From Xestospongia bergquistia (lineage: Eukaryota; Porifera; Demospongiae; Haplosclerida; Petrosiidae), in the NCBI GenBank assembly GCA_963965975.1, contig OZ014416.1:2790001-2854000 (forward strand): a stretch of 64,000 nucleotides of DNA, written 5' to 3'. Shown one piece after another: positions 7,691 through 64,000 of the stretch (position 1 is the stretch's first letter; every line of letters begins with the position of its first letter). The notes beneath the pieces were generated by a model. It worked only from the letters and a program-made list of their open reading frames with translations. It had not been told where the DNA came from and ran no database searches. A program made the translations under genes and the position numbers.

Positions 7691-8090
7691 ATGTACAGTA
7701 AAGTATGTCCTATGGACTCCTTTAACACTGCCTTTATCTGCTTGTCCATCCCTTCCCTTTCTCTCTAAGGGACTAATGGACAGTAAAGTTTGTCCTATGG
7801 ACTCCTTTAACACTGCCTTTCGTCCTGATTGTCCATTTCTTCCCTTTGTCCCTAAGGAACTAATGGAAAGTAAAGTATGTCCTATGGACTCTGGACTCTT
7901 TTAACACTGCCTTTAGTCCTGCTTGTCCATCCTTTCTCTTTGTCCCTAAGGGACTAATGAAAATTAAAGTATGTCCTATGGACTCCTTTAACAGTGCCTT
8001 TAGTGCTGCTTGTCCATCCCTTCCCTTTGTCCCCAAGAGACAAGAGTTTGTCCAGTGAAATACCTAAATGTTGTTTTTAGTCCTGCTTGT
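7691..8090 (+). repeat. 87-bp satellite (satA), short left block
   Basis: About four to five copies of the 87-bp unit, recognisable by AGTATGTCCTATGGACTCC and GTCCCTAAGGGACTAATGGA. The array is cut on the left by the Harbinger and decays into the KDZ flank on the right. The same satA-to-KDZ junction occurs at 53230-53300. Confidence 0.9.
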
Positions 8091-8272
8091 AACTAATGAA
8101 CAACAAGGACATCCTATGGACTGTCATAAAATTAGCCTTAGCTATACTAGTCTATATTTTAGAATATGTTATGTATATGTTATTATATTTTCATGACTAC
8201 ATTTGTTACTATAGAGTGTATACATTGGAAAAAATCATTTGTCCAATTTTATATTACATAAATCTAGCCTGA
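8091..8272. other. Spacer between satA and KDZ gene, left copy
   Basis: AT-rich sequence with no gene that I can recognise. It is nearly identical to 53280-53480 apart from a small indel, so it belongs to the duplicated block. Confidence 0.6.
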
Positions 8273-8700
8273 AGCAATTTCTTTTCCTCACGTATGTTAT
8301 GAAGGTCACACAAATTCAACAAAAAGAACATAAGCGTGTGCTCACTCATCTTTTGTGATATATACCTGTATCTTGAGAGCCACAAGAACACCTGCTGTTC
8401 ACAAATTTCTGTATCAACCTGATGTCATAGAGATCAAAGAAAAAGTTAAAGGGTATTTATTACTTTGGTATATGGTGTTCCAATTAGGCAAAGTCTTACC
8501 TTCTGTAATTGTGGAAAATTATGGGGGTCACAATTGTGTTTACACCATTTATTAGTGTGACCCCTCATATGCATCTTATCAACTACAATTTTTAATGATG
8601 GTAGTTGCTTTTGTTTGTTCAGTAAGACCTACTCTTTTTTTGCTCTGATCAAACCTCTTTAGATGGCAAGCACCATCATAACAAATGAATTCTATTGAAT

Positions 8701-8911
8701 TGTAACAAAATGACTTGATCAACAACAACAACAACCCAAAAACTAATATAAGTATGAAATATATACACATATGAAAAATATTCTAGAATACTTTGCAGAC
8801 TAATTATAACAAGTGTTTAAGTATCTGTTGTCCATATGAATAGGTGCCTGATATCTAATTATGTTCTAGAATATTCTGTAGACTAATTACAATAAATGTT
8901 AATACATTACA
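8701..8911 (-). repeat. 3' LTR of Gypsy element (minus-strand sense)
   Basis: 211 bp, paired with 13002-13211. It is preceded, on the minus strand, by the purine tract AAAGGAGGGAGCAA, the expected plus-strand primer. Confidence 0.92.
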
Positions 8912-8944
8912 TTGCTCCCTCCTTTGAAAAGAATACGTCCCGTA

Positions 8945-9598
8945 TTATGAACTTATATATGAGTCTAACCGATCAGGTGGCCGACGATTTCGAACTGGAT
9001 ATTGATGACAGTTGTATGCTGATGTATTAGTATGCTGATCTTGCTCATTGTCTGAGAACTCATCATCTGAAAAATTACATAATTCAGCTTTATCTCCAGC
9101 GTGATATGTAGAAGTGAGAGATGATGTAGGTTTATTTGGGAAAGAAGTAATTGGTGGAAACCAAGTACCAGGAGTGCAAAGTTTCAAACGGTTGAAGTGA
9201 ACAATTAGGGGTTTGGGTGAGTCATAAAGAAGTGGTATAATCTTATAATTTAAGTCAGATAGTTTGGATTCAACTTTATATGGCCCTGTCCAAGGGTGGT
9301 GTAGTTTTCGATGACCTCCTTGAGGAATGACTGGTGAGTACAACCATACAGTGTCACCTTTAGCGAATGGTTCTCCGTGAACACTGCTATCATATAAAGT
9401 CTTTTGTCATTGCTGAACATAACCTAAAGTATTTCCCACTATCTGGTATGCATAAGAGAGTGATGAGAGTGATGATTGCAGTTGCTGTACATACAAATAA
9501 GATGAGAGAGTATCTGAAAATGAAGTCCCAAACTGTAGATCAATAGGTAATTGAGCTTCACGCCAGGTTTTAGCCTTGCCCAAGTCTCCACCAACCAC
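8945..9598 (-). CDS. integrase-side C-terminal tail of Gypsy element
   Basis: Contains QLPIDLQFGT and WLYSPVIPQGG, HHPWTGPYKVESKLSDLNY and FNRLKLCTPGTWF, blocks that lie after the integrase core in Gypsy pol. The same tail type appears in the remnant at 35141-35634, so both come from one lineage. Fossil part. Confidence 0.75.
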
Positions 9599-9658
9599 TC
9601 CTAAATGTAACTGCTGTAAAATGTCTGCTTGAAGGCATTTAGGAACAACTAGCTGTTT

Positions 9659-10405
9659 TTATGTCTGTTGTGTATCAGTATTCAGAAATAGTCGAAGTAA
9701 AATACCATTATCAACACGTAACTGGTCCCACAGCTGAAAAAGTTTCCTTGTTTTAATGGTGTATTTGCTGAGAGTGTCATAGCTTGGTCTTTGTTTGGTT
9801 TCTTTAACAATGAGGACTGGGTTTATTATTTCATCTTTAAGCTGAAGACTTCTAATTTTAGATGCAGTCATGCCCCAAGACACAGTGTCTGAGGAAGTGG
9901 TAGCATTTATATGTAGTGGAGCATTTAAGCGTGAAAGAGAATCGGCATTGTTGTGTTTTCGTCCAGGACGATGTTGTACAGTAAATGAAAATTCTTCTAG
10001 TTTCTCTAGCCATCTAGCTAGCTGCCCTTCCCGTTGTTTAAAATTTCTCAACCATCTTAATGAGCTATGATCAGTACGTAAGGTGAAAGTACGACCAAGG
10101 AGGTATTGTCGAAAATGGAAAATGAAAGTTACCATTGCTAAAAGTTCTATGCGGGTCACACTATAGTTACGTTCAGCTTTAGATAAGGTTCTCCTAGCGT
10201 AGGCAACAACTCGTTCCTGGCCATCATCATCAACTTGTGACAGGACTGCTCCAATACCGAAGTCACTGGCGTCAGTATCCAATATAAATGGTTTTGAAGA
10301 ATCAGGGAAAACAAGTATAGGAGGGGAAACTAACAGATGCCGTAGTTTATCAAAAGCCTGCTGGCAATCTTCAGTCCACTTGAAGGATGCTGATTTTTTG
10401 GTCAA
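9659..10405 (-). CDS. RNase H region of Gypsy element
   Basis: The tether and RNase H blocks are FILDTDASDFGIGAVLSQ, RNYSVTRIELLAMVTFIFHF, LRTDHSSLRWLRNFK and HRPGRKHNNADSLSR, the standard Ty3/Gypsy RNase H order with its catalytic Asp/Glu residues. Fossil part. Confidence 0.88.
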   Translation of the reverse strand: MTKKSASFKWTEDCQQAFDKLRHLLVSPPILVFPDSSKPFILDTDASDFGIGAVLSQVDDDGQERVVAYARRTLSKAERNYSVTRIELLAMVTFIFHFRQYLLGRTFTLRTDHSSLRWLRNFKQREGQLARWLEKLEEFSFTVQHRPGRKHNNADSLSRLNAPLHINATTSSDTVSWGMTASKIRSLQLKDEIINPVLIVKETKQRPSYDTLSKYTIKTRKLFQLWDQLRVDNGILLRLFLNTDTQQT

Positions 10406-10604
10406 TTTGTGAAGTGGTCAGCAAATTGTAGCAAAATCTTTGACAAATCGCCGATAGTAGCTTGCTAAGCCTAAAAACTGTTGGAGTTGATGGCATGATG
10501 TTGGTACCGGCCAATTGGCTACTTTGTCAGTCTTGGCTGGATCAGTAGAAACTCCTTCTTCAGACACAATCTGTCCTTAAAACAGGTACCTTTTTTTGAA
10601 AAAA

Positions 10605-11140
10605 TCACACTTGGTTGGTTTTTAACTTTAATCCAGCACTTCTAAGACGTTGGAAAACATACTGTAGGTTGTCTAAATGGGACTTGAAATCATGACTGAA
10701 AATAATAACATCATCCAGATAAACGAGGCAATTTGTCCATTGGAGGCCAGTCAGAACCATATCCATGAGCCTTTGGAAAGTTGCAGGTCCATTACAGAGC
10801 CCAAATGGCATAACATAAAATTCAAAAAGGCCATCCCGGGTAACAAAAGCAGTCTTTTCCCGATCCTCTGCTGTGACTTCCACTTGCCAGTATCCACTCA
10901 GTAAGTCTAGTGTACTAAACCATTTTGCTCCAGATAATGTATCTAAGGTATCATCGATTCTTGGAATTGGATAAGCATCCTTTCTAGTGATATTATTGAC
11001 TTTACAGTAATCAATACAAAACCGAACGGAGCCATCCTTTTTTTTAACTAATACAACTGGAGAAGATCATGGACTAGTAGACTTTTGGATGATGTTGTTT
11101 TGTAACATTTGGTTAATCAATTTACTTGTCTCTGATTGAA
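10605..11140 (-). CDS. reverse transcriptase region of Gypsy element
   Basis: Reverse transcriptase blocks are clear: VTAEDREKTAFVTRDGLFEF, VMPFGLCNGPATFQRLMD and LVYLDDVIIFS, the last containing the YxDD active site. The sequence before them includes the usual substrate-binding block with SVRFCIDY. Fossil part. Confidence 0.85.
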
Positions 11141-11509
11141 GATGTTTTGGAATTCTTCGAGGTGATTGTCTGATGGGGTGTGCATTTCCTGTGTTAATGG
11201 TATGCTTTATAACTCCAGTGCGACCTAAATCGCAATCATTTTTAGGAAAAACATCAGCATACATTAAAAGAACCTGATAAAGTTGTTCTCTTTGAATATC
11301 TGTCAAACTCTGATTTTCGAGCTGTTTCCCAAAAAGTCTTTTTTTATTATTTGAAATAGGTGGAGTCTGTGCTGTCCCAACAATAGATACAAGGAGTTGA
11401 TCACCATCAGTTAACTGACTTAATGAAGCTAATTTGGTGTCTTTGTAAATTGTAGCTGGTGTATTAGTTGGGTTGATGAGTCTAACTATGATATGATTGC
11501 CAGGAATAA

Positions 11510-12220
11510 CTATTGCTCTTGCAATGATGACATTTGAGTTCTTTTTCTGACGAAATAACTGATTTCTAGTAGCCATGTTCCAGTGTGATTGACAAAATTG
11601 GGGACAACTGCTAGGGTTTCCAGTTCTGAATAAGCTGGGACAATAACAGTCTCCTTTAAAACTGCAGTTACTGGTGTAGACCTTGTAATGGTTTGTGTAG
11701 CAAAACCCAATGGTATTTCTAAGTTTCTTTCTGAGAATTGTAATTTGTGTTGTCCACAATTGACAATACATTGGTGTTTTTGGAGGAAGTCTAATCCTAC
11801 TATAGCCTCTTCTGTAAGGCCTTTTACAACTACAACTGAAGCAATAAAGTTGTGCCCCCCAAAATTTAGCTGAACTGAAACAGATCCTTTGACTTGAAGT
11901 GGAGATCCGTCAACACCCAAAAGGCGTTGGTGATTCCATGGTATTAAATCTGCCAAGGATTGTCCTGACAGTTTACAACGTACCCATGTAGATGTGTTCA
12001 TGAGAGTTACTGCAGCTCCTATATCAACTAGGAAAGAGCATGTGTAACCATGAATTTGTACAGGAATATGATATGTAACAGCAGGATTTACAGGTGATAT
12101 GTGTAAAGTACCTTGAGTTTGGATCATGACATCACCCTCAGACCGTGGACCCTTCACTGGACTGAGGGTTTCTTGTTTCCCTGGAATGGTTTTCGTTGTG
12201 GACGCCACGTTGGGCACCAA
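11510..12220 (-). CDS. aspartic protease region of Gypsy element
   Basis: The retropepsin core is visible as CSFLVDIGAAVTLMNTSTW, where the active-site loop would usually read DTG or DSG. The flap-side strands VKGSVSVQLNFGGHNF and the second core block EEAIVGLDFLQKHQC follow. In active relatives this enzyme cuts Gag-Pol in particles. Fossil part. Confidence 0.8.
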   Translation of the reverse strand: MVPNVASTTKTIPGKQETLSPVKGPRSEGDVMIQTQGTLHISPVNPAVTYHIPVQIHGYTCSFLVDIGAAVTLMNTSTWVRCKLSGQSLADLIPWNHQRLLGVDGSPLQVKGSVSVQLNFGGHNFIASVVVVKGLTEEAIVGLDFLQKHQCIVNCGQHKLQFSERNLEIPLGFATQTITRSTPVTAVLKETVIVPAYSELETLAVVPNFVNHTGTWLLEISYFVRKRTQMSSLQEQ

Positions 12221-12280
12221 GATGCAGGACAGCCCCTTGCCAAATGTCCGTGTTGCTGACAGTTAAAACAAATAATTGAT

Positions 12281-12970
12281 CTAGATGGTGGGTGGGCTTG
12301 GCTGTTGTCGTCGAGGATGAGGAGTGTTCATTTTTTCTTCCAGCTTTGTAATCTTATCAGATAACTGCTCCATTAACAACATTAATTTCTCATCACTGGA
12401 GTTGTGAGTGACAGAACTAGCCGGGAGGTCTTCGGCGTCATTTTTACCACGAGAGGTAACCATGTAAGACTCTAACTGCATTATCGTAGCTACTGCTTCA
12501 TCAAGTGTCTTCGGTGCTTTCTGTTTAACAGCAAACGAAATTTGAATATCTGTAATACTAGATTTGAACTGAGTAAGAGCAATTTGCTCCGTGGCTTTAG
12601 AATCCAAATCAGGGTAAGCCTTTGTAGAAAGTCAGCGGAGATCTTCAGCATAATCAGCCCAACTTTTAGAGATAGTACGCCTCCTTGTTGTAAACTCAGC
12701 TAGATGTAGCTCACGATTACTATCAGGCTCAAATCGGGCTTTCAGCGCTAAGACAGCATTATCAAAACTGGACTTGTCTTCCTCAGATAGTCTTTGAAAC
12801 ACTGTTTGAGCCTGACCTGTTAATCGAACTTTCAAGAAAGAAAGCTTCATAGCAACCTCCCAACCATTGACCTCTGCGCAGTTGTTAAAATGAATAATCC
12901 ATTGATCCCAGCTTTTGTTTGAGTCACCAGAGAAAGTATCAGGTAAAATAATAGGCTTTGGTGTTGCCAT
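12281..12970 (-). CDS. gag region of Gypsy element
   Basis: Opens at 12970 with MATPKPIILPDTFSGDSNKS. It carries retrotransposon gag hallmarks: WDQWIIHFNNCAEVNGW, FLKVRLTGQAQTVFQRL and ALKARFEPDSNRELH. A later acidic coiled-coil-like stretch reads MEQLSDKITKLEEKM. A CxxC zinc-knuckle sequence lies just downstream (about 12225-12275). Fossil part. Confidence 0.85.
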
Positions 12971-13001
12971 CTATAATATGAAATCCTACCCACTGCGCCA
13001 A

Positions 13002-13211
13002 TGTAACAAAATGACTTGATCAACAACAACAACAACCCAAAAACTAATATAAGTATGAAATATATACACATATGAAAATATTCTAGAATATTCTGCAGAC
13101 TAATTATAACAAGTGTTTAAGTATCTATTGTCCATATGAATAGGTGCTTGATATCTAATTATGTTCTAGAATGTTCTGTAGACTAATTACAATAAATGTT
13201 AATATATTACA
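13002..13211 (-). repeat. 5' LTR of Gypsy element (minus-strand sense)
   Basis: 210 bp, paired with 8701-8911. On the minus strand it is followed by TTGGCGCAGTGGGTAGG, placed as a primer-binding site, before the gag start. Confidence 0.92.
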
Positions 13212-14044
13212 GAATGATACAAGCAAAAATTGATTGAATAAAGATAACTCAATTGGCAATTAGTCACATACCAATAGATTTTGCAACATCCTGATGCATA
13301 GCAATAAATTGTAAAGGCATCCATAAACCTGCATTTTTGGTTCAGAAATAAAAGTTCTCCTATGAGCACAATTACTCCGCAGGGCCTCATGCCAGCCAAA
13401 ACACCTACACAATGTTTTGGTTAAACATGTAAATTAATGATGTGTTAATATTAAATTTGTGCAAAATGTGCATAACTAACCAGCAGTCCTCAAGTTCAAA
13501 AGATGTTTGTCCTTCTCAGTGTTACAAGATAATGCTTCATTATTGTCTTCTGCATCAAATGCTCTACAATAAGTATGCATGTAGATTGTTGAATTTATAT
13601 TCAGTTTGGTAATGGAGGGAGTCTGTTAATTTAGTATAAACTCTCACTAATTATATGTACTCTTTTGCATTGAGTATAGTGATGAAAGTAATGATGAGAA
13701 CCTATCCAATACTGTTGTGTATGATTGGATGGGCTTCTTTGGCGGGACATCTTGATTGTTATTGCTGCTATTGACAGAGAGAATACTTTTCTGGTGACCA
13801 TATTCCAGATATGTATGTGTCACCATTTCAGGTCAAATACCCTCCTCAAACTCTTTGATGATCTCTGGAGATAATGACTCAGGTAAATCCCAGGTGACTT
13901 GAATATCTGGTTTACCTAACCACAATACCTGTGTATTAATATATACATTTCTATAACTGCTTTGGCAAGCATCATGAAATGCCTAAAAACACAAGTCTAT
14001 TTACTATAAGTATGCATGCTATATAAAAAGAATAACATTGACAG

Positions 14045-14353
14045 TCATTTTATAAACCTTGTAAAATGTGCTGCTCCTAATGGTCTTTTTTCCAGAATCA
14101 TTTCCACAACAGAATCACCCTCATCTGCACAATAAGTTAGACATGCATGCTCAACTATCATGTTTATGGCAGTATTGAGATTTATATTGTGGGGATGATG
14201 TGCAGCCTGATTTGATATGTCCTGGTCAGTTGGAATACAAATGTATCCAGAATCCTTTGCCATGCACACATCACGACGATTTTTCATATTATTACCATCA
14301 AGCACCAGAACATTTTTGCAACCTGGATACTTGCATGTGTGTTCTATAGACAT
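14045..14353 (-). CDS. KDZ-associated cysteine-cluster exon, left copy
   Basis: A 102-codon open exon contains CKYPGCKNVLVLDGNNMKN and RRDVCMAKDSG, followed by HACLTYCADEGD. Conserved Cys-x4-Cys, DGN and RRDVC residues fit the CxC5/CxC6-type zinc clusters that accompany KDZ transposases. It differs from its partner at 54766-55074 at six residues. It is an exon of the larger broken gene rather than a stand-alone gene; the ATG may be coincidental because an acceptor (TCTATAG) lies just after it. Confidence 0.7.
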   Translation of the reverse strand: MSIEHTCKYPGCKNVLVLDGNNMKNRRDVCMAKDSGYICIPTDQDISNQAAHHPHNINLNTAINMIVEHACLTYCADEGDSVVEMILEKRPLGAAHFTRFIK

Positions 14354-14640
14354 GATTTTGATTTATTAACAGTAAGTTTTATAAAGAGTTACCTGAGTAC
14401 TTTCTTTCAAAAGCTTCATAGAATATTGGAGTGAACCATTGTAGAGTTAAACCCAAGTCTCAATACATAGGGACAGGTCCATTAATTTCTGGATAACGAG
14501 ACATGTTCAAAATAGAAAATCTGAGGTGTGCTAACTCAAATCGTCTGAAATCGAGCTTAACACATTTATGAAGTTGTTCAAATTTAAATATTTTTTTAAA
14601 AATAAAACATTCACAAAGAAGCATTGATGGCTTAAATATA

Positions 14641-14833
14641 AGATGTTACTGCTAAGAATGATGTTGACGTAAGTTTTGAGTAGATCAGACATCAACATGA
14701 GTAATGGATCTCAGCGTTAAATCAGATATACTCAGAGTCAAATGAGATATCAGTGTTAAGACTCATGTTGATGTCAGTGTGTAGTAGATCAGGTGTTAGA
14801 TCAGGCTTTGTTGTTAAGAATAGTGTTAATGTC
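14641..14833 (+). repeat. satB array, left block 1
   Basis: Start of the second satellite, with units around AGATCAGATATCAACATGAG and GTTAAGAATCATGTTGATG. It is collinear with 56021-56220 in the right copy. In the left copy it joins the KDZ gene directly, whereas the right copy has about 670 bp more KDZ sequence. Confidence 0.85.
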
Positions 14834-14838
14834 TTCAA

Positions 14839-15945
14839 TTGGTAACACAGCACAAAAACAAAGAGAGCAGAAAGTCTAAGAACAGTCTCATTAAAAAATT
14901 TGAATACCTCTTGCTCTTTAACACATCAAAGGATAAGAAGACTTTTGTTCTGGATGAGAAGAAACTGGTCATCAATCTCAGCAACCACAACCTAACTGAT
15001 GCCCAAAATTATGTCCTTGCTCTGGGACTAAACTTTGCCACTAACCTAAAGGAAGTTCCTTATTCTGATATCATTACAAACACTGAGCTAGTATCTAAAT
15101 CACTTCCACAACCTGAAGGACAACAACTTCGTGAAGTGGTTAAAGAATGTCTTAATAGACGTGGCCAAAACCCCCCCCCCCCCATACCCACTCTTAGCCG
15201 AGAAGAACGTGAAGCTGTCAGAAGCCTCAAGGAGAGCAAGGAAATAGTCGTACTTCCTGCTGACAAAGGCAATGCCACTGTTATCATGAATAAAGATGAC
15301 TACACATCACAAATAAGAAATCTACTGTATCAAAATGACTACAAAATCACCAAAGGCAATCCTACCAACAGATTCACCAATTCCATAAAGAAAGCTCTGG
15401 AAGATATCCTCCAAACTAATAATATTTCCCCAGAACTAGCCCAACATCTTATTCCAAAGAATCCCACCACACCGCAGATCTATGGCTTACCTAAAATACA
15501 CAAAATGGAAGTTCCTCTTAGACCCATTGTGTGTACTATTGGATCTGCTACATATAACTTAGCAAAAGAGCTTAATAGGATTCTTTCCCCTCTTGTTGGA
15601 AAAACGGACAGTTATGTCAAAAATTCTTCCCGTTTTGTTAGCTCCATCTCTCATCTTAATCTGGATGAAAATGACTTACTCGTCAGTTTTGATGTTAAGA
15701 GTTTGTTCACCAGGGTACCAATCAATGATGCCCTCACCATCATCAAAGATAGATTAATATCAGATGAGGATCTAGGAAATAGAACCACCATGACCCCACT
15801 TCAGATCTGTCATCTAGTAGAACTATGCCTCAGATCAATCTTCTTCAGGTTTGGAGACAAACTCTATGAACAGACGGACGGTACAGCTATTGGTTCACCA
15901 CTTTTACCCACAGTAGCCAATATTTTTATGGAAGATTTGAAATGA
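14839..15945 (+). CDS. Penelope-like reverse transcriptase, N-terminal and core part
   Basis: A 368-residue frame. Conserved blocks: KEIVVLPADKGNATVIMNK (about residues 134-152), which is typical of Penelope enzymes, PQIYGLPKIHKMEVPLRPIV (about 212-231), motif A with LVSFDVKSLFTRVPI (about 282-296), and motif B with TDGTAIGSPLLPTVANIF (about 346-363). The YVDD motif C is encoded just downstream at about 15993 in another frame, so this copy is interrupted after motif B. A run of 13 C at 15171-15183 lies inside the frame and encodes a proline stretch; it is a likely slippage or miscall spot. The enzyme copies element RNA, related to telomerase-like reverse transcriptases. Confidence 0.9.
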   Translation: MVTQHKNKESRKSKNSLIKKFEYLLLFNTSKDKKTFVLDEKKLVINLSNHNLTDAQNYVLALGLNFATNLKEVPYSDIITNTELVSKSLPQPEGQQLREVVKECLNRRGQNPPPPIPTLSREEREAVRSLKESKEIVVLPADKGNATVIMNKDDYTSQIRNLLYQNDYKITKGNPTNRFTNSIKKALEDILQTNNISPELAQHLIPKNPTTPQIYGLPKIHKMEVPLRPIVCTIGSATYNLAKELNRILSPLVGKTDSYVKNSSRFVSSISHLNLDENDLLVSFDVKSLFTRVPINDALTIIKDRLISDEDLGNRTTMTPLQICHLVELCLRSIFFRFGDKLYEQTDGTAIGSPLLPTVANIFMEDLK

Positions 15946-16598
15946 CTGCTATCTCAACCTTCCATCTACAACCAAAACTGTGGAGAAGATACGTCGATGA
16001 CACCTTCGTCATCTGGCCTCACAACAACTCTTCCTTACAGGATTTTCTGTCCCACATCAGTAGCCTACACGATAGGATTGAGTTCACAATGGAGATGTAA
16101 GTTAACAACTCCATTGCCTTCTTAGATGTACTCATCTCAAAGAATAACAACAGGCTGACTACAACAGTTTACAGGAAACCCACCCATACTGATAGATACC
16201 TGAATTACAGATCTAATCACCATCCACTTGTCAAATCAGGTATCATCAATTGTCTCAAGGAGAGAGCTATCAACGTATGCTCAGAGGATACACTCCCCCA
16301 TGAGATAGATAGACTACATGGCGTCTTCAGAGCTAACAGTTTCCCATCTAGAAGGATTTACTATGGCCTTAATCAATCTAAACCTAAGAAGATTACAACA
16401 GTTGCTCCAATATCATCTGAAGAATCCCTGACAAAAGAAAAGAAGAAGAGAACCCTTGTCCTTCCTTATGTCAAAGGCCTAAGCAAAGGCATCAGTCAAG
16501 CTTGTCGTTCCCTCAACATCAAAACTGCATTTACCTCTAGAAATACACTTAGGAGATCTCTATCACATGTCAAGATCCCTACTCCACCAGAGGATAAA

Positions 16599-16931
16599 GT
16601 GGGAGTCATCTATGAGATCCCTTGCGAATGTGGTGCTGTATACATTGGAGAAACTGGCAGAACAATGAAAATAAGAAAAGCTGAACACAAGAGGGCTGTT
16701 AAAAATGCCGATACCACCAATGCTTTGGCTCTCCACTTCATCAAAACAGGACACAAGATTTTATGGGATGAGTGCAGAATACTTGAACAAGAGATCAGCT
16801 GGAGGAAGAGGAAGACCAAAGAGGTCATCTTCATAAAAACCACTAGCAACACTATCAACCTAGATCCAGGCTTTATCATCAATCCTACATGGACATCTCT
16901 GCTCTACAACATACCAGTTCGAAATCAATAA
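16599..16931 (+). CDS. Penelope-like GIY-YIG endonuclease domain and C-terminus
   Basis: The frame carries GVIYEIPCECGAVYIGETGR with the GIY-like (VIY) and YIG signatures, a CxC pair typical of the Penelope subgroup (PCEC), the conserved Arg in TGRTMKIRKAEHKRAV, and a His-rich ALHFIKTGHKILWDE block. It ends about 330 bp before the element's 3' end. This nuclease nicks the target for reverse transcription. The frame continues from the reverse transcriptase region upstream, so it is the C-terminal domain rather than a separate protein. Confidence 0.9.
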   Translation: MGVIYEIPCECGAVYIGETGRTMKIRKAEHKRAVKNADTTNALALHFIKTGHKILWDECRILEQEISWRKRKTKEVIFIKTTSNTINLDPGFIINPTWTSLLYNIPVRNQ

Positions 16932-17132
16932 TCATTAGCCATGCCCACAACAATTAACTTGTTCACGTCTGTTTTGAGCTCTATGGTCCAAGATGTTTTT
17001 ACTCACCTTCTACACGGAACAAATTAGCATCTCTTTTTAGCCTTCTGGGACAACCTTCACCTCTTAGCCCAATTACTAACTGTAAACAATCATGCATTGC
17101 TATAAATAGCATGACTTTTTTGCCTAGTTTCA

Positions 17133-17169
17133 TACAGCTGATGAAGGCCTTTGGCCGAAACATTCTGTA
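17133..17169 (+). ncRNA. Hammerhead-ribozyme-like motif of Penelope element
   Basis: The core reads CTGATGA, then AGGCC-TTT-GGCC as a perfect short stem II, then GAAAC. Flanking TACAG and CTGTA can pair as stem I. Penelope-like elements are known to carry short type I hammerheads with a minimal stem III. Stem III and the cleavage triplet (ATT) look weak here, so activity is doubtful. Confidence 0.6.
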
Positions 17170-17260
17170 CTTTTTTTCAGAATATATTTTATCACGTTCA
17201 TAAAGCTCAAATAATCTTTTCTTAAAAACATGAACAACATGGTAAAGAAACTCCCAACTT

Positions 17261-18172
17261 CATAATCATGGTCAATGTTGGTGTGGAATAGATCATTTAC
17301 AACATGAGTAAATCATATCTCAGTGTTAGATCAGATATCGGTTTGTGTTAAATCAGATGTTATTGTTAAGAATCATGTTGATGTATGCGTGCAGTAGATC
17401 AGATATGAATGAACATGACAAAATCAGATCTCAGTGTTAGATCAGATATAGTGTCATATGAGATATTAGTGTCAAGAATCATGTTAATGTCATTGTGTAG
17501 TAGACCATGTATCAACGTGAGTAAATCAGATTTCTGTGTTAGATCAGACATCAGTTTGTCTTAAATCAGATGCTTGTGTTAAGAATCATGTTGACGTAAG
17601 TTTGCAGTAGATCAGATATCAACATGAGTAAAACAGATCTCAGCGTTAGATCAGACATAGTCAGTGTCAGATGAGATATCAGTGTTAAGAATCATGTTAA
17701 TGTCAGTGTGTAGAGATCATATATATGAGCACGAGTAAATCAGATCTCAGTGTTAGATCAGATATCAGTTTCTGTTAAATCAGATGTTAGTGATAAAAAT
17801 CATGATATCTGTTTGCAGTAGATCAGATATCAACATGAGTAAATCTGATCTCATTGCTAGATCAGATATCATAGTGTGAACTGATGCATCGGTCTTAAGA
17901 ATGATATTGATGTCAGTGTGTATTAGATTAGACGTCAACATATGTTAGATCATGGTATCAGTATTAAGAATCGTGTTGATATCAGTGTGTAGTAGATCAG
18001 ATATCAACAAAAGTAAATCAGATCTCAGTGTTAGATCAAGTATCATTGTTAAGAAACGTGTTAATATCAGTGCGTGGATCAAGTATCAACGTGAGTAAAT
18101 CAGATCTCAGTTTATGTTAAATCAGATGTTAGTCTAAAGAATCATGTTGACGTCTCTTTGCAGTAGATCAGA
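17261..18172 (+). repeat. satB array, left block 2
   Basis: Forward satB units between the Penelope-like element and the CACTA element, collinear with about 56288-57240 of the right copy (shared phrase TTTGTCTTAAATCAGATGCT). The last three bases, AGA, are the CACTA target duplication. Confidence 0.88.
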
Positions 18173-18400
18173 CACTACTGAACTGATGTATCTGAATTTC
18201 ATTGAAGAATAATTGAAAGCTTTAGTTGAAAAGTATTGGAAAAATATTGAAAAAACATCCCAAACTATCTGAAAAGTATTTGATTTTGTGCAGCACAAAA
18301 TATCTAAAATAAATATAAATTTGTCTGAAAATCATTGCAATTTCAGCTGACACAATGGACTAGGTATATTTAATTGTATATAATAATTATATTAAAATGA
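18173..18400 (+). repeat. CACTA left terminal and subterminal repeat region
   Basis: After the CACTACTG terminus, short TCTGAA/TCTGAAAA motifs recur (about 18187, 18270, 18333), mirrored in the right subterminal region. CACTA elements commonly carry such repeats as binding sites for their accessory DNA-binding protein. No frame is seen here. Confidence 0.65.
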
Positions 18401-20218: not shown

Positions 20219-20278
20219 TATATCTCTCAGTCATTCTTTAACTTAGCCAGCTGCCTTTTAATAGCCACATGTGATAGC

Positions 20279-26272: not shown

Positions 26273-26284
26273 CCTTAAATTACT

Positions 26285-52235: not shown

Positions 52236-52404
52236 AGGAGGTAACTGTCGTATCTTTTTACTTTGTCTTCGCTCTGATTTCGATGTGAAATCTGTGTTTG
52301 GTTGAATCCAACAAGGCGCAGCCAGTTCTTTGATGTGTTTTAGTCGTTAAGGTGGGTTCTTCGTACAACTGCTTTCCGAAGAATCCCACCGCTGCCACCA
52401 AACT

Positions 52405-53240: not shown

Positions 53241-53479
53241 TTTGTCCAGTGAAATACCTAAATGTTGTTCTTAGTCCTGTTTGCCTTTGTCCTAAGGAAC
53301 TAATGAACAACAAGGACATCCTATGAACTGTCATAAAATTAGCCTTAGCTATACTAATCTATATTTTGTATCATCTATTAAGTGCTCTTTTACAGTGAGT
53401 CTGTTATGTATATGTTATCATTTGTTACTATAGAGTGTATAGGTTGGAAAAAATCATTTTGTCCAATTTTATATTACAT
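53241..53479. other. Spacer between satA and KDZ gene, right copy
   Basis: No gene seen. Collinear with 8070-8272. It holds a 40-50 bp stretch (TATCATCTATTAAGTGCTC) absent from the left copy. Confidence 0.6.
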
Positions 53480-55937
53480 AAATGCAGCCTGAAGGAATTT
53501 CTTTTCGTCACGTATGTTATGAAGGTTACACAAATTCAACAAAAACAACATAAACGTGTGCTCAATCATCTTATGTGATATGTGCCTATATCTTGAGAGC
53601 CATGAGAACACCTGTTCACAAATTTCTGTATCATCTTGATGTCATAGAGATCAAAGAAAAAGTTAAAGGGTATTATTACTTTGGTATATGGTGTTCCAAT
53701 TAGGCAGAGTCTTATCTTCTGTAATTGTTGAAAATTATGGGGGTCACAATTGTGTTTACACCATTTATCAGTGTGACCCCTCATATGCATCTTATCAACT
53801 ACAATTTTTAGTGATGGTAGTTGTTTTGTTTGTTCCGTATTACCTACTCTTTTTTTTTGCTCTGATCAAACCTCTTTAGATGGCAAGCACCGTCATAACA
53901 AATGATTTCTATTGAATGATACAAGCAAAAATTGATTGAATAAAGATAACTCAAGTGGTAATTAGTCACATACCAATAGATTTTGCAACATCCTGATGCA
54001 TTGCAAAAAATTGTGAAGGCATCCATAAACCTGCATTTTTGGTTCAGAAATAAAAGTTCTCCTATTAGCACAATTACTCCACAGGACCTCATGCCAGCCA
54101 AAACACCTACACAATGTTTTGGTTAAACATGTAAATTAATAATGTGTTAATATTAAATTTGTGCAAAATGTGCATAACTAACCAGCAGTCCTCAAGTTCA
54201 AAAGATGTTTGTCCTTCTCAGTGTTACAAGATAATGCTTCATTATTGTCTTCTGCATCAAATGCTCTACAATAAGTATGCATGTAGATTGTTGAATTTAT
54301 ATTCAGTTTGGTAATGGAGGGAGTCTGTTAACTTAGTATAAACTCTCACTAATTATATGTACTCTTTTGCATTGAGTACTGACAGTATAGTGATGAAAGT
54401 AATGATGAGAACCTATCCAATACTGTTGTGTATGATTGGATGCTCTATTCTGGGCTTCTTTGGTGTGACATCTTGATCGTTGTTGCTGCTATTGACAGAG
54501 AGAATACTTTTCTGGTGACCATATTCCAGATATGTATGTGTCACCACTTCAGGTCGAATACCCTCCCCAAACTCTTTGATGATCTCTGGAGATAATGAGT
54601 AAGGTAAATCCCAGGTGACTTGAATATCTGGTTTACCTAACCACAATACCTGTGTATTGATATATACACTCTTATAACTGCTTTGGCAAGCATCATGAAA
54701 TGCCTAAAAACACAAGTCTATTTACTATAAGTATGCATGCTATATAAAAAGAATAACATTGACAGTCATTTTATAAACCTTGTAAAACGTGCTGCTCCTA
54801 ATGGTCTTTTTTCCAGAATCATTTCCACAACAGGATCACCCTCATCTGCACAATAAGTAAGACATGCATGCTCAACTATCGTGTTTATGGCAGTATTGAG
54901 ATTTATATTGTGGGGATGATGTGCAGCCTGATTTGATATGTCCTGGTCAGTTGGGATACGAATGCATCCAGCATCCTTTGCCATGCACACATCACGACGA
55001 TTTTTCATATTATTACCATCAAGCACCAGAACATTTTTGCAACCTGGATACTTGCATGTGTGTTCTATAGACATGATTTTGATTTATTAACAGTAAGTTT
55101 TATAAAGAGTTACCTGAGTACTTTCTTTCAAAAGCTTCATAGAATATTGGAGTGAACCGTTGTAGAGTTAAATCCAAGTTTCAATACATAGGGACAGGTC
55201 CATTAATTTCTGGATAACGAGACGTGTTCAAAATAGAAAATCTGATGTGTGCTAACTCAAATCTTCTACAATCAAGCTTAACACATTTATGAAGTTGTTC
55301 AAATTTAAATATTGTTTTAAAATAAAACATTCACAAAGAAGCATTGATGGCTTAAATATGCCTTTCATTAGATTGTTGATGCTTCTGTACTTCAAGAAAG
55401 GAGCATTTCTTTGGTTCTACTTTATAGTTGTTACTGTAATCGTAGATGTCACCTTTTTGTTTGTAGCTAATGTGACTTAAAAGAAGTTATGCATCAAACT
55501 TTGAAAGCATTTTCATCCCAAATGCTGTTTCACTACTAGATATGAAATAGTCCAATAGGTCCCAGTTAGTGTCATAGAATGTCACAAATTTATCTCTATC
55601 AGAATGGTATCCATAATATTGCCTGAAGGAGGACATTTTTTGCTGACTGGCAATATTTGTGGTAGTGGGTACCTATTAAAGTTCCAAACAATTCAGTATG
55701 TACACTGTTATGTGTCTTGGTCTGTCACTGCGAATGAGCAATCTACTTTGACATAATCCACATTTTTCATTTGATGATTCATTAATACTATTAAGGTCAT
55801 GGATTTCTTCTATCAATTTCTTATCAGTGGCAAAAGCTGTGGGATTAAAGAGCTGGAGATTTTCTATCATAGCTTTCATAGTAATAGGATCTATACCCTT
55901 GGTCAAATGACTATTCATCATAGCAAACTGTGCAACA
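53480..55937 (-). pseudogene. KDZ transposase gene, right copy
   Basis: Exon blocks on the minus strand, N to C: MNSHLTKGIDPITMKAMIEN and CGLCQSRLLIRSDRPRHITV (55690-55925, a Cys cluster), QYYGYHSDRDKFVTFYDTNW (about 55560-55620), RRFELAHIRFSILNTSRYP (about 55200-55270), LTLQRFTPIFYEAFERKYS (about 55120-55180), the VLVLDGNNMKNRRDVC exon (54766-55074), VTWDLPYSLSPEIIKEFGEG (about 54560-54620), AFDAEDNNEALSCNTEKDKH (about 54210-54270), MAGMRSCGVIVLIGELLFL (54045-54101), ICYDGACHLKRFDQS (about 53860-53910), MHMRGHTDKWCKHNCDP (53740-53790) and EHTFMLFLLNLCNLHN (about 53500-53570). This is the KDZ transposase order. satB replaces the N-terminus at 55938. Stops and frame changes (for example a TGA near 55190 and a shift near 55670) show decay. 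Confidence 0.8.
54766..55074 (-). CDS. KDZ-associated cysteine-cluster exon, right copy
   Basis: Open 102-codon exon, partner of 14045-14353. It has CKYPGCKNVLVLDGNNMKN, RRDVCMAKDAG and HACLTYCADEGD. Six residues differ from the left copy, and the Cys, DGN and RRDVC residues are kept in both. It is part of the larger KDZ gene. Confidence 0.72.
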   Translation of the reverse strand: MSIEHTCKYPGCKNVLVLDGNNMKNRRDVCMAKDAGCIRIPTDQDISNQAAHHPHNINLNTAINTIVEHACLTYCADEGDPVVEMILEKRPLGAARFTRFIK

Positions 55938-58900
55938 AGTGTCAGTGTGTAATAGATCATATATCAGCATGTGTAAATCAGATCTGTGTTAGATCAGATA
56001 TCAGTTTGTGTTAAATGAGATGTTACTGCTAAGAATGATGTTGACGTAAGTTTTGAGTAGATCAGATATCAACATGAGTAAAGGATCTCAGCGTTAAATC
56101 AGATATAGTCAGAGTCAAATGAGATATCAGTGTTATGACTCATGTTGATGTCAGTGTGTAGTAGATCAGATATCAACAGGTGCTAGATCAGGCTTCATTG
56201 TTAAGAATAGTGTTACTGTCAGTATGTAGTAGATCAGATATCAACAAAAATAAATCAGATCTCAGTGTTAGATAAGGTGTCAGTGTTAAGAATCATGTCA
56301 ATGTCTGTGTGTAATAGATCATTTATCAACACGAGTAAATCATATCTCAGTGTTAGATCAGATATCAGTTTGTGTTAAGGAGATGTTATTGTTAAGAATC
56401 ATGTTGATGTATGCTTGCAGTAGATCAGATATGAACATGACAAAATCAGATCTGTGTTAGATCAGATGTAATAGTCAGTGTCATATGAGATATTAGTGTC
56501 AAAAATCATGTTTATGTCAGATCAATGTGAGTAAATCAGATTTCTGTGTTAGATCAGACATCAGTTTGTCTTAAATCAGATGCTTGTGTTAAGAATCATG
56601 TTGACGTAAGTTTGCAGTAGACCAGATATCAACATGAGTAAAAAAGATCTCAGCGTTAGATCAGGTATCATAGTGTCAGATGAGATGTCAGTGTTAAGAA
56701 TCATCTTGATGTCAGTGTGTAGTAGATCAGATATAAACAGGTGTTAGATCAGGTATCACTGTTAAGGATTATGTTGATGTCAATGTGTAGTAGATCAGAT
56801 ATCAACAACAGTAATTCAGATCTCGGTGTTAGATCAGCTATCAGTGTTAAGAATCATGTTGATGTCTGGTTGCAGTAGATCAGATATCAACATGAGTAAA
56901 TCAGATCTCAGTGTAAATGAGATATCATAGTGTGAGATAACATGTCAGTGTGAAGAATCACGTTGATATCAGGTTTCATTACATCAGATATGAACATGAG
57001 AAAATCAGATCTAAGTGTTAGATCAGATATCAGTTTGTGTTAAGTCAGAAGTTGGTGTAAAAAATCATGTTGATGTTTGCAGAAGATCAGATATCAACAT
57101 GAGTAAATCAGATCACAGTGTTACATCATAGTCAGAGTCAGATATCAGTGTTAAGAAACATATTGATGACAGTGTGTAGTAGATCAGATATTAACAAGAG
57201 TAAATCAGATCTTGGTGTTAGATCAGATATCAGTGTTAAGGATTGTAAAGATGTCAATGTGTAGTAGATCATATATAAACATGAGAAAATCACATCTCAG
57301 TGTTAGATCAGATATCAGTTTGTGTTAAATCAGATCTTAGTGTTAAGAATCATGTTTATGTCTGTTTGTGGTAGATCAGATATCAACAGAGTAAATCAGA
57401 TCTCAGTGTTAGATCAGTCTCATAGTCTCTGATGATATATCAGTGTTAAGAATCATTTTATTGTCAGTGCATTGTGGATCAGATATCAACAGGTGTTAGA
57501 TCAGTTTTCACTGTTAAGAATCGTGTTGATGTCAGTGTGTAGTATATCAGATATCAAGAAAAGTAAATGAGATCTTGGTGGTAGATCAGGTATCAGTGTT
57601 AAAAATTGTGTTAATGTTAGTGGGTGCATCATATATCAACATGACTAAAGCAGATCTGTGTTAAAACAGATATCAGTTTGTGTTAAATCAGATGTTAGTG
57701 TAAAGAATCATGTTGACGTCTGTTTGCTGTAGATCAGATATCAACAAGAGTAAATCATATATCAGCATTAGATCAGATATCATAGTGTCAGATGAGTGGT
57801 CAGTGTTAATCACGTTGATGTCAGGTTTCAGTACATCAGACATGAACATGAGAAAATCAGATCTTAGTGTTAGATCAGATATCAGTTTGTGTTAAATCAG
57901 ATGTTGGTGTTAAAAATCATGTTGATGTATGTTTGCAGATCAGATATCAACATTAGTAAATCAGATCTCAGTCTGGTATCAGATATAGTCAGTGTCAGAT
58001 AAGATATCAGTGTTAAAAATCATGTTGGTGACAGTTTGTAGTAAATTCAGATATCAACAAGAGTAAATCAGATCTCGGTGTTAGATCAGGTATCAGTGTT
58101 AAGAAGCATGTTAATGTCAGTGTGTAGTAGATCATATATCAACATGACTAAATCAGATCTCAGTGTTATATCAGATATAAGTTTGTGTTAAATCAGATGT
58201 TAGTGTTAAGAATCATATTGATGTCTGTTTGCAGTAGTTCAGATATCAACATGAGTAAATCAGATCTCAGTGTTAGATCAGATATCATAGTGTCATATGA
58301 GATATCAGTGTCAAGAATCACGTTAATGTCAGTGTGTAGTATCAACATGAGTAAAGCAGATCTGTGTTAGATTAGATATCAGTTTGGGGATGTTAGTGTT
58401 AAGAATTATGTTGATGTTCTTTCGCAGCAGATCATATGTAAACATGAGTAAATCAGATCTCACTGTTAGATCAGGTATCATAGTCAGTGTCAGATGAGAT
58501 CAGTGTTAAGAATCATCTTGATGTCAGTGTGTCATGAATCAGATATCAACAGGTGTTAGATCAGTTATCACTGTTACGAATCGTGTTAATGTTAGTGCGT
58601 GGATCACATATCAACAAATGTAAATCAGATCTCAGTGTTAAATCAGATATCATAGTCAGTGTAAGATATCAGTTTTAAGTATCATGTTGATGTCACAGTG
58701 TAGATCAGATATCAGCAAGAGTAAATCAAATCTCGGTGTTACTTAAGGTGTCAGTGTTAAGAAATGTGTTAATGTCAGTGTGTAGTAGAACATATATTAA
58801 CATGAGTAAATGAGATTTCAGTGTTAGATAAGATATCAGTGTTAAGAATAATGTTAAATTCAGTGTGTATTAGATAATATAAATACATGAGTAAATCAGA

Positions 58901-61900
58901 TCTGTGCTAGATCAGATATCAGTGTTAGCGTCAGATGAGATATCAGTGTTAAGAATCATGTTGATGTCAATTTGTAGTAGATCAGATATCAAAGAGTAAG
59001 TCAGATCTGGGTGTTAGATCAGGTATTAGTGTTGTGGATCATATATCATTATGAGCAAATTAGATCTCAGTGTTAAATCAGATATCAGTTTGTGTTATAT
59101 CAGATGTTAGTGTTGAGTCATGTTGATGTCTGTTTGCAGTAGATCATATATCAACATGAATAAATCACATCTCAGTGTTAGATCAGATATCAGTTTGTGT
59201 TATATCAGATGTTAGTATTAAGAATCATGTTGATGTCTGTTTGCAGTATATCAGATATAAACATGAGTAAGTCAGCTCTCAGTGTTAGGTGAGATATCAT
59301 AGTGTCAGATGTCAGTGTTAAATATCACGTTGATGTCAGGTTGCAGTACATCAGATATCAACATGAGAAAATCAGATCTTAGTGTTAGATCAGATATCAA
59401 TTTGTGTTAAGTCAGATATTGGTGTTAAAAATCATGATGTATGTTTGTAGTATATCAGATATAAACATGAGTAAATCAAATCTCAGTGTTAGATCAGATA
59501 TCATAGTGTCAGATAAGATGTCAGTGTTAAGAATCATGTTGATGACAGTGTGTAGTAGATCAGATATCAATAAGTGTAAATAAGATCTCAGTGTTAGATC
59601 TGATATCAGTTTGTGTTAAATCAGATGTTAGTGTTAAGAATCATGTTGATATCAACATGAGTAAATCAGATAAAGTATCATAGTCAGTGTCACATGAGAT
59701 ATTAGTGTCAAGAATCATATTAATGTCAGTGTGTAGTAGATCATATATCAACATGAGTTAACCAAATCTCAGTATTAGATCAGATATCAGTTTGTGTTAA
59801 ATCAGATGTTAGTCTTAAGAATCATGTTGATGTCTCTTTGCAGTAGATCAGATATAAACATTAGTAAATCAGATCTCAGTGTTAGATCAGATATAGTCAG
59901 TGTCAGATGAGATATCAGTGTTATGAATCATGTTGATGTCAGTTTGTCATAGATCAGATATCAACAGGTGTTAGATAAGGTGTCAGTGTTAAGAATCGTG
60001 TTGATATCATTGTGTACTAAATCAGAGGTCAACAAGAGTAATGATATCTCTGTGTTAGATCAGGTATCAGTGTTAAAAATCATGTTAATGTCAGTGTGTA
60101 AATTAGATCTCAGTGTTAGATAAAGTATCAATGTTAAGAATCAGATTGATGTCATTATGTACTAAATCATATACAAACATGTATAAATCAGATTTCAGTG
60201 TTAGATCAAATATCAGTTTGTGTTAAATCAGATGTTAGTGTAAAGAATCATATTGACTTCTGTTTGGAGTAGATCAGATATCAACATGAGCAAATCATAT
60301 ATCAGCGTTAGATCAGATATCAGTCAGTGCCAGATGAGATATCAGTGTTAAGAATCATGTTGATGAGCATATCAGATCTCAGTATTAGATCATATATCAG
60401 TTTGTGTTATATCAGATGTTAGTGTTAAGAATCATGTGGACATAAGTTTGCAGTAGATCTGATATCAACATAAGTAAGAGATCTCAGCTTTAGATCAGAC
60501 AGTTCATGTCAGATGAGATATCAGCGTTAAGAATCATGTTGATATGAGTGTATAGTAGATCAGATATCAACAGGTGTTAGATCAGGCATCACTGTTAAGA
60601 ATCGTGTTGATGTCAGTGTGTAATAGATCATATATCAACAAAAGTAAATCAGATCTGTGTTATTTCAGATATCACTGTTAGCGTCAGGTCAGATACCAGT
60701 ATTAAGAATCATGTTGATATCAGTGCATAGTAGATCAGATATCAACAGGTGTTAGATCGCATCACTGTTAAGAATCATGTTGATGTCAATGTGTAGTAGA
60801 TCAGATATCAACAAGAGTGAATCAGATCTTAGTGTTAGATCAAGTATCAGTGTTAAGAATCATGTTAATGTCAGTGTGAAGTAGATCATATATCAGCATG
60901 AGTATATCAGATCTCAGTGTTAGATGAGATTTCAGTTTGTCTTAAATCAGATGTTATTGTTAAGAATCATGTTGATGTCTGGTTGCAGTAGATCAGATAT
61001 CAACATGAGTAAATCATATATCAGCGTTAGATCAGATATAAGTCAGTGCCAGATGAGATATCAGTGTTAAGAATCATGTTGATGTCAGAGTGTAGATAAG
61101 ATATAAACGAGTAAATCATATCTCAGTTTTACATGAGGTATCAGTGTTAAGAATCCTGTTAATGTCAGTGTGTTATAGATCATATATCAACATGAGTAAA
61201 TGAGATCTCAGTGTTAGATCAAATATCAGTGTTAGCATCAGATCAGATATCAGTATTAAGAATCATGTTGATGTCAGTGTGTAGTAGATCAGATATCAAC
61301 AGTATCAGATCAGGTTCAATGTTAACATTTGTGTTGATGTCAGTGTGTAGTAGATCAGATATCAACAAGAGCAAATCAGATCTCAGTGTTAGATTAGGTA
61401 TCAGTATTAAGAATCATGTTAATGTCTCTGTGTAATAGATCATATATCAGCATTTCTAAATCAGATCTTAGTGTTAGATCATATATCAGTTTGTGTTAAA
61501 TCAGATTTTAGTGTTAAGAATCATGTTGATATCAGTGTATAGTAGATCAGATATCAACAGGTGTTAGATCTGGCATTACTGTTAAGAATCGTGTTGATGT
61601 CAGTGTGTAATAGATCATATATCAACAAAAATAAATATATCTGTGTTATTTTAAAAATCATTGTTAGCGTCAGGTCAGATATCAGTATTAAAAATCATGT
61701 TGATATCAGTGTATAGATCAGATATCAACAGGTGTTAGATCAGGTTTCACTGTTAAGAATCATGTTGATGTCAATGTGTAGATCAGATATCAATAAGAGT
61801 AAATCAGATGTTGATCAGGTATCGGTGTTAAGAATCGTGTTAATGTCAGTGTGTAGATCATATATCAGCGTGAGTAAACCAGATCTCAGTGTTAGATCAG

Positions 61901-63672
61901 ATTTCAGTTTGTGTTAAATCAGATGTTATTGTTAAGAATCATGTTATCTGGTTGCAGTAGATCAGATATCAACATAAGTAAATCAGATGTCAGTGTTAGA
62001 TCAGATATAGTCAGTGTCATATGAGATATCAGTGTTAACATTTATGCTAATATGAGTGTGTAGACATATATCAACATGAGTAAATCAGATCTCAGTGTTA
62101 GATCAGATATCAGTTTTTACTAAATGAGATGTTAGTGTTAAGAATCATGTTGATGACTGTTTGCAGTAGAACAGATATCAACATCAGTAAATCAGATCTC
62201 AGTGTTAGATCAGATATCATAGTCAGTGTTAGATGAGATATCAGTGTTAAGAATGGTATTGATGTCAGTGTGTAGATCAGATATCAACAGATGCTGGATC
62301 AGATATCGGTGTTAGATCATGTATCAATGTTAAGAATCTTGTTAATGTCAGTGTGTAGTAGATCATAAATCAACATGAGTAAATGAGATCTGTGTTAGAT
62401 CAAATATCAGTTTGTGTTAAATCATGGTAGTGTTAAGAATTATGTTGATGTCTGTTTGCAGTAGATCAGATAGCATAGTCAGGGTCAGATGACATATCAG
62501 TGTTAAGGATCATGTTGATGTCAGTGTGTAGATCATATGTCAACAGATGTTAGATCAGGTATCAGTGTTAAGAATCATGTTAAATTCAATGTGTAGTAGG
62601 TCTTATATTAACATGAGTAAATCAGATCTCAGTGTTAGATTAGATATTAATTTACATTAAATCAGATGTTAGTGTTAAGGACCATGTTGATGTCTGTTTG
62701 CAGTAGATCAGATATCAACATGAGTAAATTAGATTTCAGTGTTAGATCAGATATCATAGTCAGTGTCAGATAAGATATCTGTTAAGAATCATGTTGATGT
62801 CAGTGTGTAGTAGATGAGATATCAACAGGTGTTAGATCAGGTATCAGTGTTAAGAATCCTGTTAATGTCAGTGCGTAGTAGATCATATATGAACATGAGT
62901 AAATCAGATCTCAGTGTTAGATCAAATATCAGTTTGTGTTAAATCATGTTAGTGTTAAGAATCATGATGTCTGTTTGCAGTAGATCAGATATCAACAGGT
63001 GTTAGATCAGGTATCACTGTTAAGGATGAGTTGAAGTCAATGTGTTGTAGATCAGATATCAACTAGAGTGAATCAGATCTTGGTGTTAGAAGAGGTATCA
63101 GTGTTAAGAATCATGTTGATGTCAGGTTTCAGTACATCAGATATAAACATGAGAAAATCAAATCTTAGTGTTAAATCAGATTTCAGTTTGTGTTAAATCA
63201 GATGTTATTATTAAGAATCATGTTGATGTATGTTGCAATAGATCAGATATCAACATGAGTAAATCGGATCTCAGTGTTACATCAGATATCATAGTCAGTG
63301 TCAGATAAGATCAGTGTTAAGAAACATGTTGATGACAGTGTGTAGTAGATCATATGTCAATCTGAGTAAATCAGATCTCAGTGTTAGATCAGATATTAGT
63401 CTGTCTTAAATCAGATGTTTGTGTTAAGAATAATATTGATGTTTGTTTGCGGTAGATCAGATATCACATGAGAAAATCAGATCTTAGTGTTAGATCAGAT
63501 ATCAATTTGTGTTAAGTCAGATTTTGGTGTTAAAAATGTTGATTTTTGTTGCAGTGGATCAGATATAAATGAGTAAATCAGATCTCAGTGTTAGATCAGA
63601 TACCAGTGTTAAGAATTGTGTTAATGTCAGTGCGTAGATCATATATCAACATGAGTAAATTAGATCTGTGTT
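55938..63672 (+). repeat. satB array, right copy (forward)
   Basis: Uninterrupted forward satB units, collinear with the left blocks once the Penelope-like and CACTA insertions are removed there. Short open frames inside are by-products of the repeat. Confidence 0.95.
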
Positions 63673-64000
63673 AGATAACACTAACATTTGATTTAACACA
63701 AACTGATATCTGATCTAACATTGAGATCTGATTTACTCATGTTGATATATGTTCTACTACACATTGATATTAACACGATTCTTAATACTGATACCCTAAT
63801 CTAACACCGAGATCTGATTTACTCTTGTTGATATCTGATCTTACTACACAATCATCATGATTTTTAACACTTATATCTTATCTGACACTGTCTATGATAT
63901 CTGATATCAGACTGAGATCTGATTTACTAATGTTGATATCTGATCTGCAAACATACATCAAAATGATTTTTAACACCAACATCTGACTTAACACAAACTG
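63673..64000 (-). repeat. satB array, right copy (inverted), runs off window
   Basis: After GTGTTAGATAACACTAAC at about 63665-63685 the satB phrases continue on the minus strand to the window end. The order of variants matches 32986-33300. Confidence 0.93.

Follow-up and report, generated by a model that had tools for sequence, protein, structure and literature searches.

A probable macrosatellite-like tandem repeat of two satellites and a transposase-like gene remnant in the sponge Xestospongia bergquistia

Introduction

Macrosatellites of the D4Z4 and DXZ4 type are built of many-kilobase units that lie head to tail at one locus and contain internal repeats and a gene. One route by which satellites arise, as described in a review (PMC12628747), is the expansion of short arrays lying inside transposable elements. 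Among the papers listed by searches of open-licence full texts that touched on sponge satellites and centromeres, no title dealt with that subject. Here we analyze a 64,000-nucleotide stretch of the sponge Xestospongia bergquistia (the window; positions 2,790,001-2,854,000 of contig OZ014416.1, hereafter C6) that carries two satellites, satA and satB, together with a remnant of a transposase-like gene labelled KDZ. The data consist of one assembly of 146.5 Mb in 21 contigs. We propose, with a probability of roughly 0.82, that the window is part of a local macro-tandem repeat, similar to a macrosatellite, in which four or more units lie on the same chromosome. It appears to be a real local tandem duplication, of a general kind that is already known.

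Results

Four head-to-tail units on one contig

The satellite order in the window was checked by self-comparison, repeat finding and k-mer painting, which agreed with the order, orientation and repetition of satA, KDZ gene, forward satB and inverted satB described in an earlier note on this DNA. That note counted the series twice, but at least four head-to-tail units, followed by a partial fifth satA, occupy C6 from 2,778.8 to 2,916.8 kb. The order within a unit is satA, gene remnant, forward satB, inverted satB and linker. We numbered the units 0 to 3 along C6, with units 0 and 1 falling within the window. Unit 0 starts with satA remnants from 2,778.8 kb, followed by its gene part and by satB up to 2,825.1 kb, and unit 1 has satA from 2,825.6 kb, then its gene part and satB up to 2,862.2 kb. 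Further along C6, unit 2 consists of satA from 2,862.9 kb, a gene part with an internal deletion and satB up to 2,890.0 kb, and unit 3 of satA from 2,890.8 kb, a gene part and satB up to 2,915.6 kb. The gene part of unit 3 has the same break point as that of unit 2, but the gap extends into satB. Beyond unit 3 there is about 0.4 kb of satA interrupted by other sequence, and no more satellite was found from this partial fifth satA as far as 2,938 kb.

The spacing of the units is unequal. Successive genes are offset by 40.7, 37.4 and 27.2 kb. Measured between the starts of successive linkers, unit 2 is 27.9 kb long and unit 3 is 25.6 kb long, and unit 1 comes to about 27.4 kb by subtraction of its two inserts. 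The insert-free period is therefore about 26-28 kb, and it is because of insertions that the offset of 40.7 kb in the window exceeds it. The period of about 31-45 kb proposed earlier, depending on insert load, needs correcting to this insert-free value.

Breakpoints shared between units

Several breakpoints recur between units. The satB inversion centre has the same sequence in unit 0 (window positions 32,969-32,993) and unit 1 (63,668-63,692). With up to two mismatches allowed, a search of the genome found it exactly twice, both times in the C6 array. Units 2 and 3 have a different inversion centre in common, and inverted satB pieces of unit 2 match the forward satB in unit 1 with their order reversed, so that a second inversion is likely. 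Units 1, 2 and 3 each end in a linker of about 730 bp, which lies between inverted satB and satA and is 95-97% identical among them. It joins satA in the same way in all three, and this joint was reached by 3 of the 54 linker matches reported genome-wide, from 40 of 58 candidates scored. The junction between gene and satB (55,922-55,955) is common to units 1 and 2 and absent from units 0 and 3. In a genome search at up to three mismatches its pattern had a single match, in unit 1; such searches miss indel-bearing copies, and the junction in unit 2 differs by a one-base gap. In these genome searches none of the composite junctions (inversion centre, gene-satB, linker-satA) was found outside the C6 array. 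The several multi-kilobase units thus have breakpoints in common, and for this reason we regard them as duplicates of one another rather than as independent events.

Divergence and order of events

The gene parts of units 0 and 1 aligned with 95.8% identity over 1,447 bp (96.3% over 2,003 sites), those of units 1 and 2 with 95.2% (1,662 sites) and those of units 2 and 3 with 99.4% (1,124 sites), compared to 90.8-91.6% between the C6 gene parts and two copies on contig C7. Linker identity was 98.7% for units 1 and 2, 97.4% for units 2 and 3 and 97.3% for units 1 and 3, a pattern that fits one, last duplication spanning linker 1 to the satB of unit 2. Judged by these identities, the duplication that separates units 2 and 3 was probably the youngest, with those of units 0/1 and 1/2 being older.

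We scored satellite collinearity as the longest ordered run of matched pieces and compared it to 5,000 shuffles. From unit 0 to unit 1 the ordered run comprised 11 of 21 pieces of forward satB (reached by 8 of the 5,000 shuffles) and 6 of 7 pieces of inverted satB (43 shuffles). From unit 2 to unit 3 all 18 pieces of inverted satB were in order, as were 25 of 58 pieces of satA, and neither result was reached by any shuffle.

Layout of units 0 and 1 and their inserted elements

The window opens within a terminal inverted repeat (TIR) element, whose right part (1-7,688) was delimited by its edges and by satA on both sides. The whole element, 13,985 bp at C6:2,783,704-2,797,688, sits in the satA of unit 0; it ends in identical 16-bp inverted repeats, AGGCTGGTTCACATAA, flanked by a 3-bp target duplication, TAA, and has an open reading frame (ORF; 2,928-3,788) with a YqaJ (exonuclease-like) domain in Pfam. 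Repeat finding and k-mer painting placed the last satA monomers of unit 0 at 7,689-8,041 on the plus strand. The left unit had been put at 7,691-35,140; within the window we find it at 7,689-35,131, its satA there being a remnant cut by the TIR element. The gene part of unit 0, on the minus strand, is in two pieces, one at 8,042-8,700, which aligns with unit 1 up to 53,917, and one at 13,212-14,637, which is 95.8% identical to unit 1 and contains the exon at 14,045-14,353 on the minus strand. Between them lies a long terminal repeat (LTR) retrotransposon (8,701-13,211, minus strand) that is absent from the gene part of unit 1 and was recognized by its pair of 211-bp LTRs (96.7% identical) and by RNase H, protease and integrase p58 domains.

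The second gene piece is joined directly to a satB fragment (14,638-14,833, plus strand; 90.8% identical to C6:2,846,015-2,846,220), a joint that represents a deletion relative to unit 1. An insert in satB follows on the plus strand at 14,834-17,263, and its two stop-to-stop ORFs, of 371 and 276 amino acids, had no Pfam match. Repeat finding and k-mer painting assigned 17,264-18,172 and the main block at 26,569-32,968 to forward satB (plus strand), and 32,994-35,131, beyond the inversion centre, to inverted satB (minus strand). The two forward blocks are separated by a CACTA-type DNA transposon (18,173-26,568, plus strand) with both ends present, CACTACTG and CAGTAGTG, a target duplication AGA, an ORF with DUF4218 and a Transposase_21 match below cut-off. 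The unit is followed by a 497-bp fragment (35,132-35,628) that is 95.4% identical to C6:2,856,876-2,857,371, within an insert of unit 1, and is presumably retroelement-like.

In unit 1, satA has a monomer of 87-88 bp and occupies 35,631-47,764 (repeat finding and k-mer painting) and 52,727-53,231 (repeat finding), both on the plus strand. An LTR retrotransposon on the minus strand (47,765-52,726; 325-bp LTRs, 96.3% identical; target duplication TATGT; Pfam domains for reverse transcriptase, RNase H and integrase zinc-binding) splits what is one array, and for this reason the true start of the right unit is 35,631 and not 52,727 as previously suggested. We take both LTR retrotransposons to be of the Ty3/gypsy type. 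The gene part lies at 53,232-55,941 on the minus strand; its outer end is cut and joined to satB. Forward satB (plus strand, repeat finding and k-mer painting) extends over 55,942-63,667, and inverted satB starts at 63,693-64,000 on the minus strand and runs on, with an insert of about 4.9 kb, to about C6:2,862.18 kb. Forward satB amounts to 7.5 kb in unit 0, by addition of the pieces, and to 7.7 kb in unit 1, in line with the earlier lengths.

The gene remnant and its label

The exon pair at 14,045-14,353 and 54,766-55,074 has an open frame on the minus strand and stops in all three plus-strand frames; it differs at six residues, as had been noted, and at 8 bases. The cysteine/histidine-rich motifs of the exons resemble those of KDZ, and on this ground the name is plausible but unproven, the Pfam profile giving no confirmation. 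The KDZ profile PF18758 had no match for five window exons, nor, at a looser cut-off, for three C7 and two window exons; one window exon had a DUF4798 match below cut-off. The KDZ profile gave no match in the genome and none in any of the 14 controls either, which makes this search uninformative. On C7 the homologous sequence extends beyond the position at which C6 passes into satB, which indicates that the C6 gene is a broken fragment and not the end of an element.

The satellites elsewhere in the genome

At two places on C7 the same gene is flanked, on the same side, by about 1 kb of satA, with 12 monomers at one place and 10 at the other, and in units 1-3 satA forms arrays of 12-18 kb. Mean monomer identity was 78-80% between C6 and C7 and 83-84% within C6, for monomers of 80-96 bp and at most 400 pairs per set. 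Both C7 places lie within a larger inverted duplication, which we observed at 3.678-3.705 Mb and 3.871-3.910 Mb, its long pieces being mostly 92-98% identical. Units resembling satA also adjoin both copies of the gene on C2. A satA pattern had 210 matches in the genome, and among the matches listed all but three (one on C1, two on C2) were in the C6 array. A longer pattern of the C7 type matched 22 times, with 11 of the matches in the C6 array, nine on C7 and one each on C1 and C2. Three of the nine on C7 fell at 3.624 Mb, a third place, for which the exon search gave no match. Dispersed copies of the gene are thus accompanied by a short satA array, as would be expected of a satellite derived from a transposon, the transposon itself being presumed.

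The units of satB vary in length, with values near 68, 85 and 104-107 bp being frequent. A 42-base satB word had 76 exact matches, on C1, C4, C6, C7, C8, C9, C12 and C13, with 18 in the C6 array; another satB pattern had four matches and added no further contig. The sequence at the satB edge had 18 matches, on C4, C6, C7, C8, C9, C14 and C15, and was read at six places (three on C6 and one each on C7, C9 and C14). Beyond this edge, past the point where C6 switches to satA, C7 and C9 still resemble each other over about 1.5 kb (89%), as do C7 and C14, in pieces, over about 1.1 kb (81-91%). One edge copy on C14 carries a satB stretch of only about 150 bp; this copy may be an ancestral form or a decayed one. 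Upstream of this stub, the C14 sequence matched the C6 stretch once, over 63 bp, and gave no match to the C1 or C7 stretches compared. Four copies of the repeat with the satB edge occur on C14 at 2.56-3.04 Mb, 136-172 kb apart. When a coding parent for satB was sought on C14 and C9, only short ORFs were found, and the three of the nine that were scanned with Pfam had no match. It may be that both satellites expanded from short arrays within dispersed repeats, although for satB the direction is unproven.

Matches to the satB word or to the linker were found on at least 12 of the 21 contigs, often in one region per contig. Among the matches listed, satB is on the plus strand at 4.26-4.48 Mb and on the minus strand at 5.44-5.64 Mb of C7, and on the plus strand at 4.2-4.7 Mb and the minus strand at 5.27-5.41 Mb of C9, so that it is spread over more than 1 Mb on both. 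C8 and C13 have the opposite order to C7 and C9, C4 is minus throughout and C1 alternates. C6 has a second satB zone at 4.31-4.49 Mb, and C11 has a linker match at 76 kb. From this distribution, the satB zones may be pericentromeric heterochromatin.

Mitochondrial sequences

The assembly also includes a mitochondrial contig of 18,997 bp, whose cox1 has nine in-frame TGA codons and no other stop. Four mitochondrial tRNA genes were found in one stretch and 10 in another, with three common to both. Taken together, these features fit a demosponge. A published account (PMC2800124) describes the decoding of UGA as tryptophan in sponge mitochondria and the retention of only two mitochondrial tRNAs in keratose sponges and most cnidarians. 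Nuclear contig C6 holds stretches like mitochondrial cox1 at 3,154.9-3,155.9 kb and 3,199.1-3,200.4 kb.

Discussion

The array could have formed as follows. A fragment of a dispersed repeat, with the gene and a short satA array, would have been joined to the expanded satB array of another dispersed repeat, and part of satB would have been inverted. The composite segment would then have been duplicated in tandem, stepwise, probably through unequal exchange between satellite arrays, with units 2 and 3 arising from the youngest duplication. Satellite turnover within the units would have continued, and single units would have received insertions of LTR, CACTA and TIR elements, which would account for the unequal spacing.

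Several observations weigh against a tandem duplication of this kind. From unit 1 to unit 2 neither satA (9 of 40 pieces in the ordered run, reached by 4,298 of 5,000 shuffles) nor forward satB (8 of 25 pieces, 2,429 shuffles) is collinear, and the order of inverted satB is weak (6 of 10 pieces, 474 shuffles). From this poor order it follows that the units have had much of their satellite replaced since they were duplicated, and a loss of satA order in this older pair is as expected of satellites that turn over. Unit 0 has neither the linker nor the gene-satB junction, and unit 3 also lacks the latter; because of these missing features, the membership of unit 0 rests on its gene part, its satB order and its inversion centre. 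The pattern searches were blind to indels, and the one for the gene-satB junction failed to find unit 2. Finally, the copies elsewhere in the genome that contain little satB might be the product of decay rather than ancestral forms.

The earlier note had considered a real macrosatellite, copies of one giant element and two haplotypes assembled in series. Haplotypes or alternative assembly paths in series would make the array an assembly artefact; satellite arrays are hard to assemble, and alleles in a diverse species could be as similar as the gene parts of units 2 and 3 (99.4% identical). However, there are four units and a partial fifth rather than two, the gene parts of units 0 and 1 differ by 3.7%, the same two units carry different LTR insertions with LTR pairs differing by 3.3-3.7%, the satA of units 2 and 3 is only partly collinear, and the flanks of the array (38.8 kb on the left, 21.2 kb on the right) have no match of 100 bp or more in common. 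An artefact of this kind is improbable for the array as a whole, and the number of units, the flanks, the divergence and the unit-specific insertions speak against it for units 0 and 1, whereas it retains somewhat more weight for units 2 and 3.

That one giant mobile element, bearing both satellites and the transposase-like gene, was inserted repeatedly would explain why satA accompanies the gene remnant at the two C7 places, why satA-like units adjoin both gene copies on C2 and why the satB edge is part of a dispersed repeat. We nevertheless consider this highly improbable, as the genome searches found no composite copy elsewhere: both matches to the inversion centre, the single match to the gene-satB pattern and the three linker-satA joints are all in the array, and the continuation of C7 homology past the start of satB on C6 marks a broken fragment rather than the end of an element. 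Several independent transposon insertions into a long landscape of satB and satA, with no duplication of units, would agree with the missing collinearity of satA and forward satB between units 1 and 2, but such insertions would not reproduce the gene-satB junction common to units 1 and 2, the linker-satA joint common to units 1, 2 and 3, or the inversion centres common to units 0 and 1 and to units 2 and 3, and we give this explanation very little credence. A real macro-tandem repeat is supported by the four units, their common breakpoints, the unduplicated flanks, a divergence of about 4-5% in most pairs and the insertions specific to single units.

The breakpoints of this macro-tandem repeat are still readable, and they show how satellites whose probable origin was in short arrays of dispersed repeats can fuse and be amplified as a larger unit. 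The array also offers candidate pericentromeric markers for an early-branching animal. It is conceivable, though we think it rather unlikely, that satB marks pericentromeric zones with arrays mirrored on C7 and C9, and that the C6 array is an outlying block that took up a fragment of a transposon together with the satellite belonging to it, the fragment then being amplified along with the block, a young and still readable composite pericentromeric repeat born from two transposon-linked satellites.

Among known systems, KDZ (Kyakuja-Dileera-Zisupton) DNA transposons resemble the gene remnant in their Cys/His-rich exon motifs, but the exons scanned on C6 and C7 differ in having no match to the Pfam KDZ profile. 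The array is like the macrosatellites D4Z4 and DXZ4 in its multi-kilobase head-to-tail units at one locus, its internal repeats and its gene remnant, and unlike them in that its units number about four and are unequal through satellite turnover and transposon insertion. With satellites derived from transposable elements, as described in PMC12628747, it shares an array that is about 1 kb long beside the gene elsewhere in the genome and 12-18 kb long here; it differs in that two satellites of different dispersed repeats have been fused on C6 together with a gene fragment.

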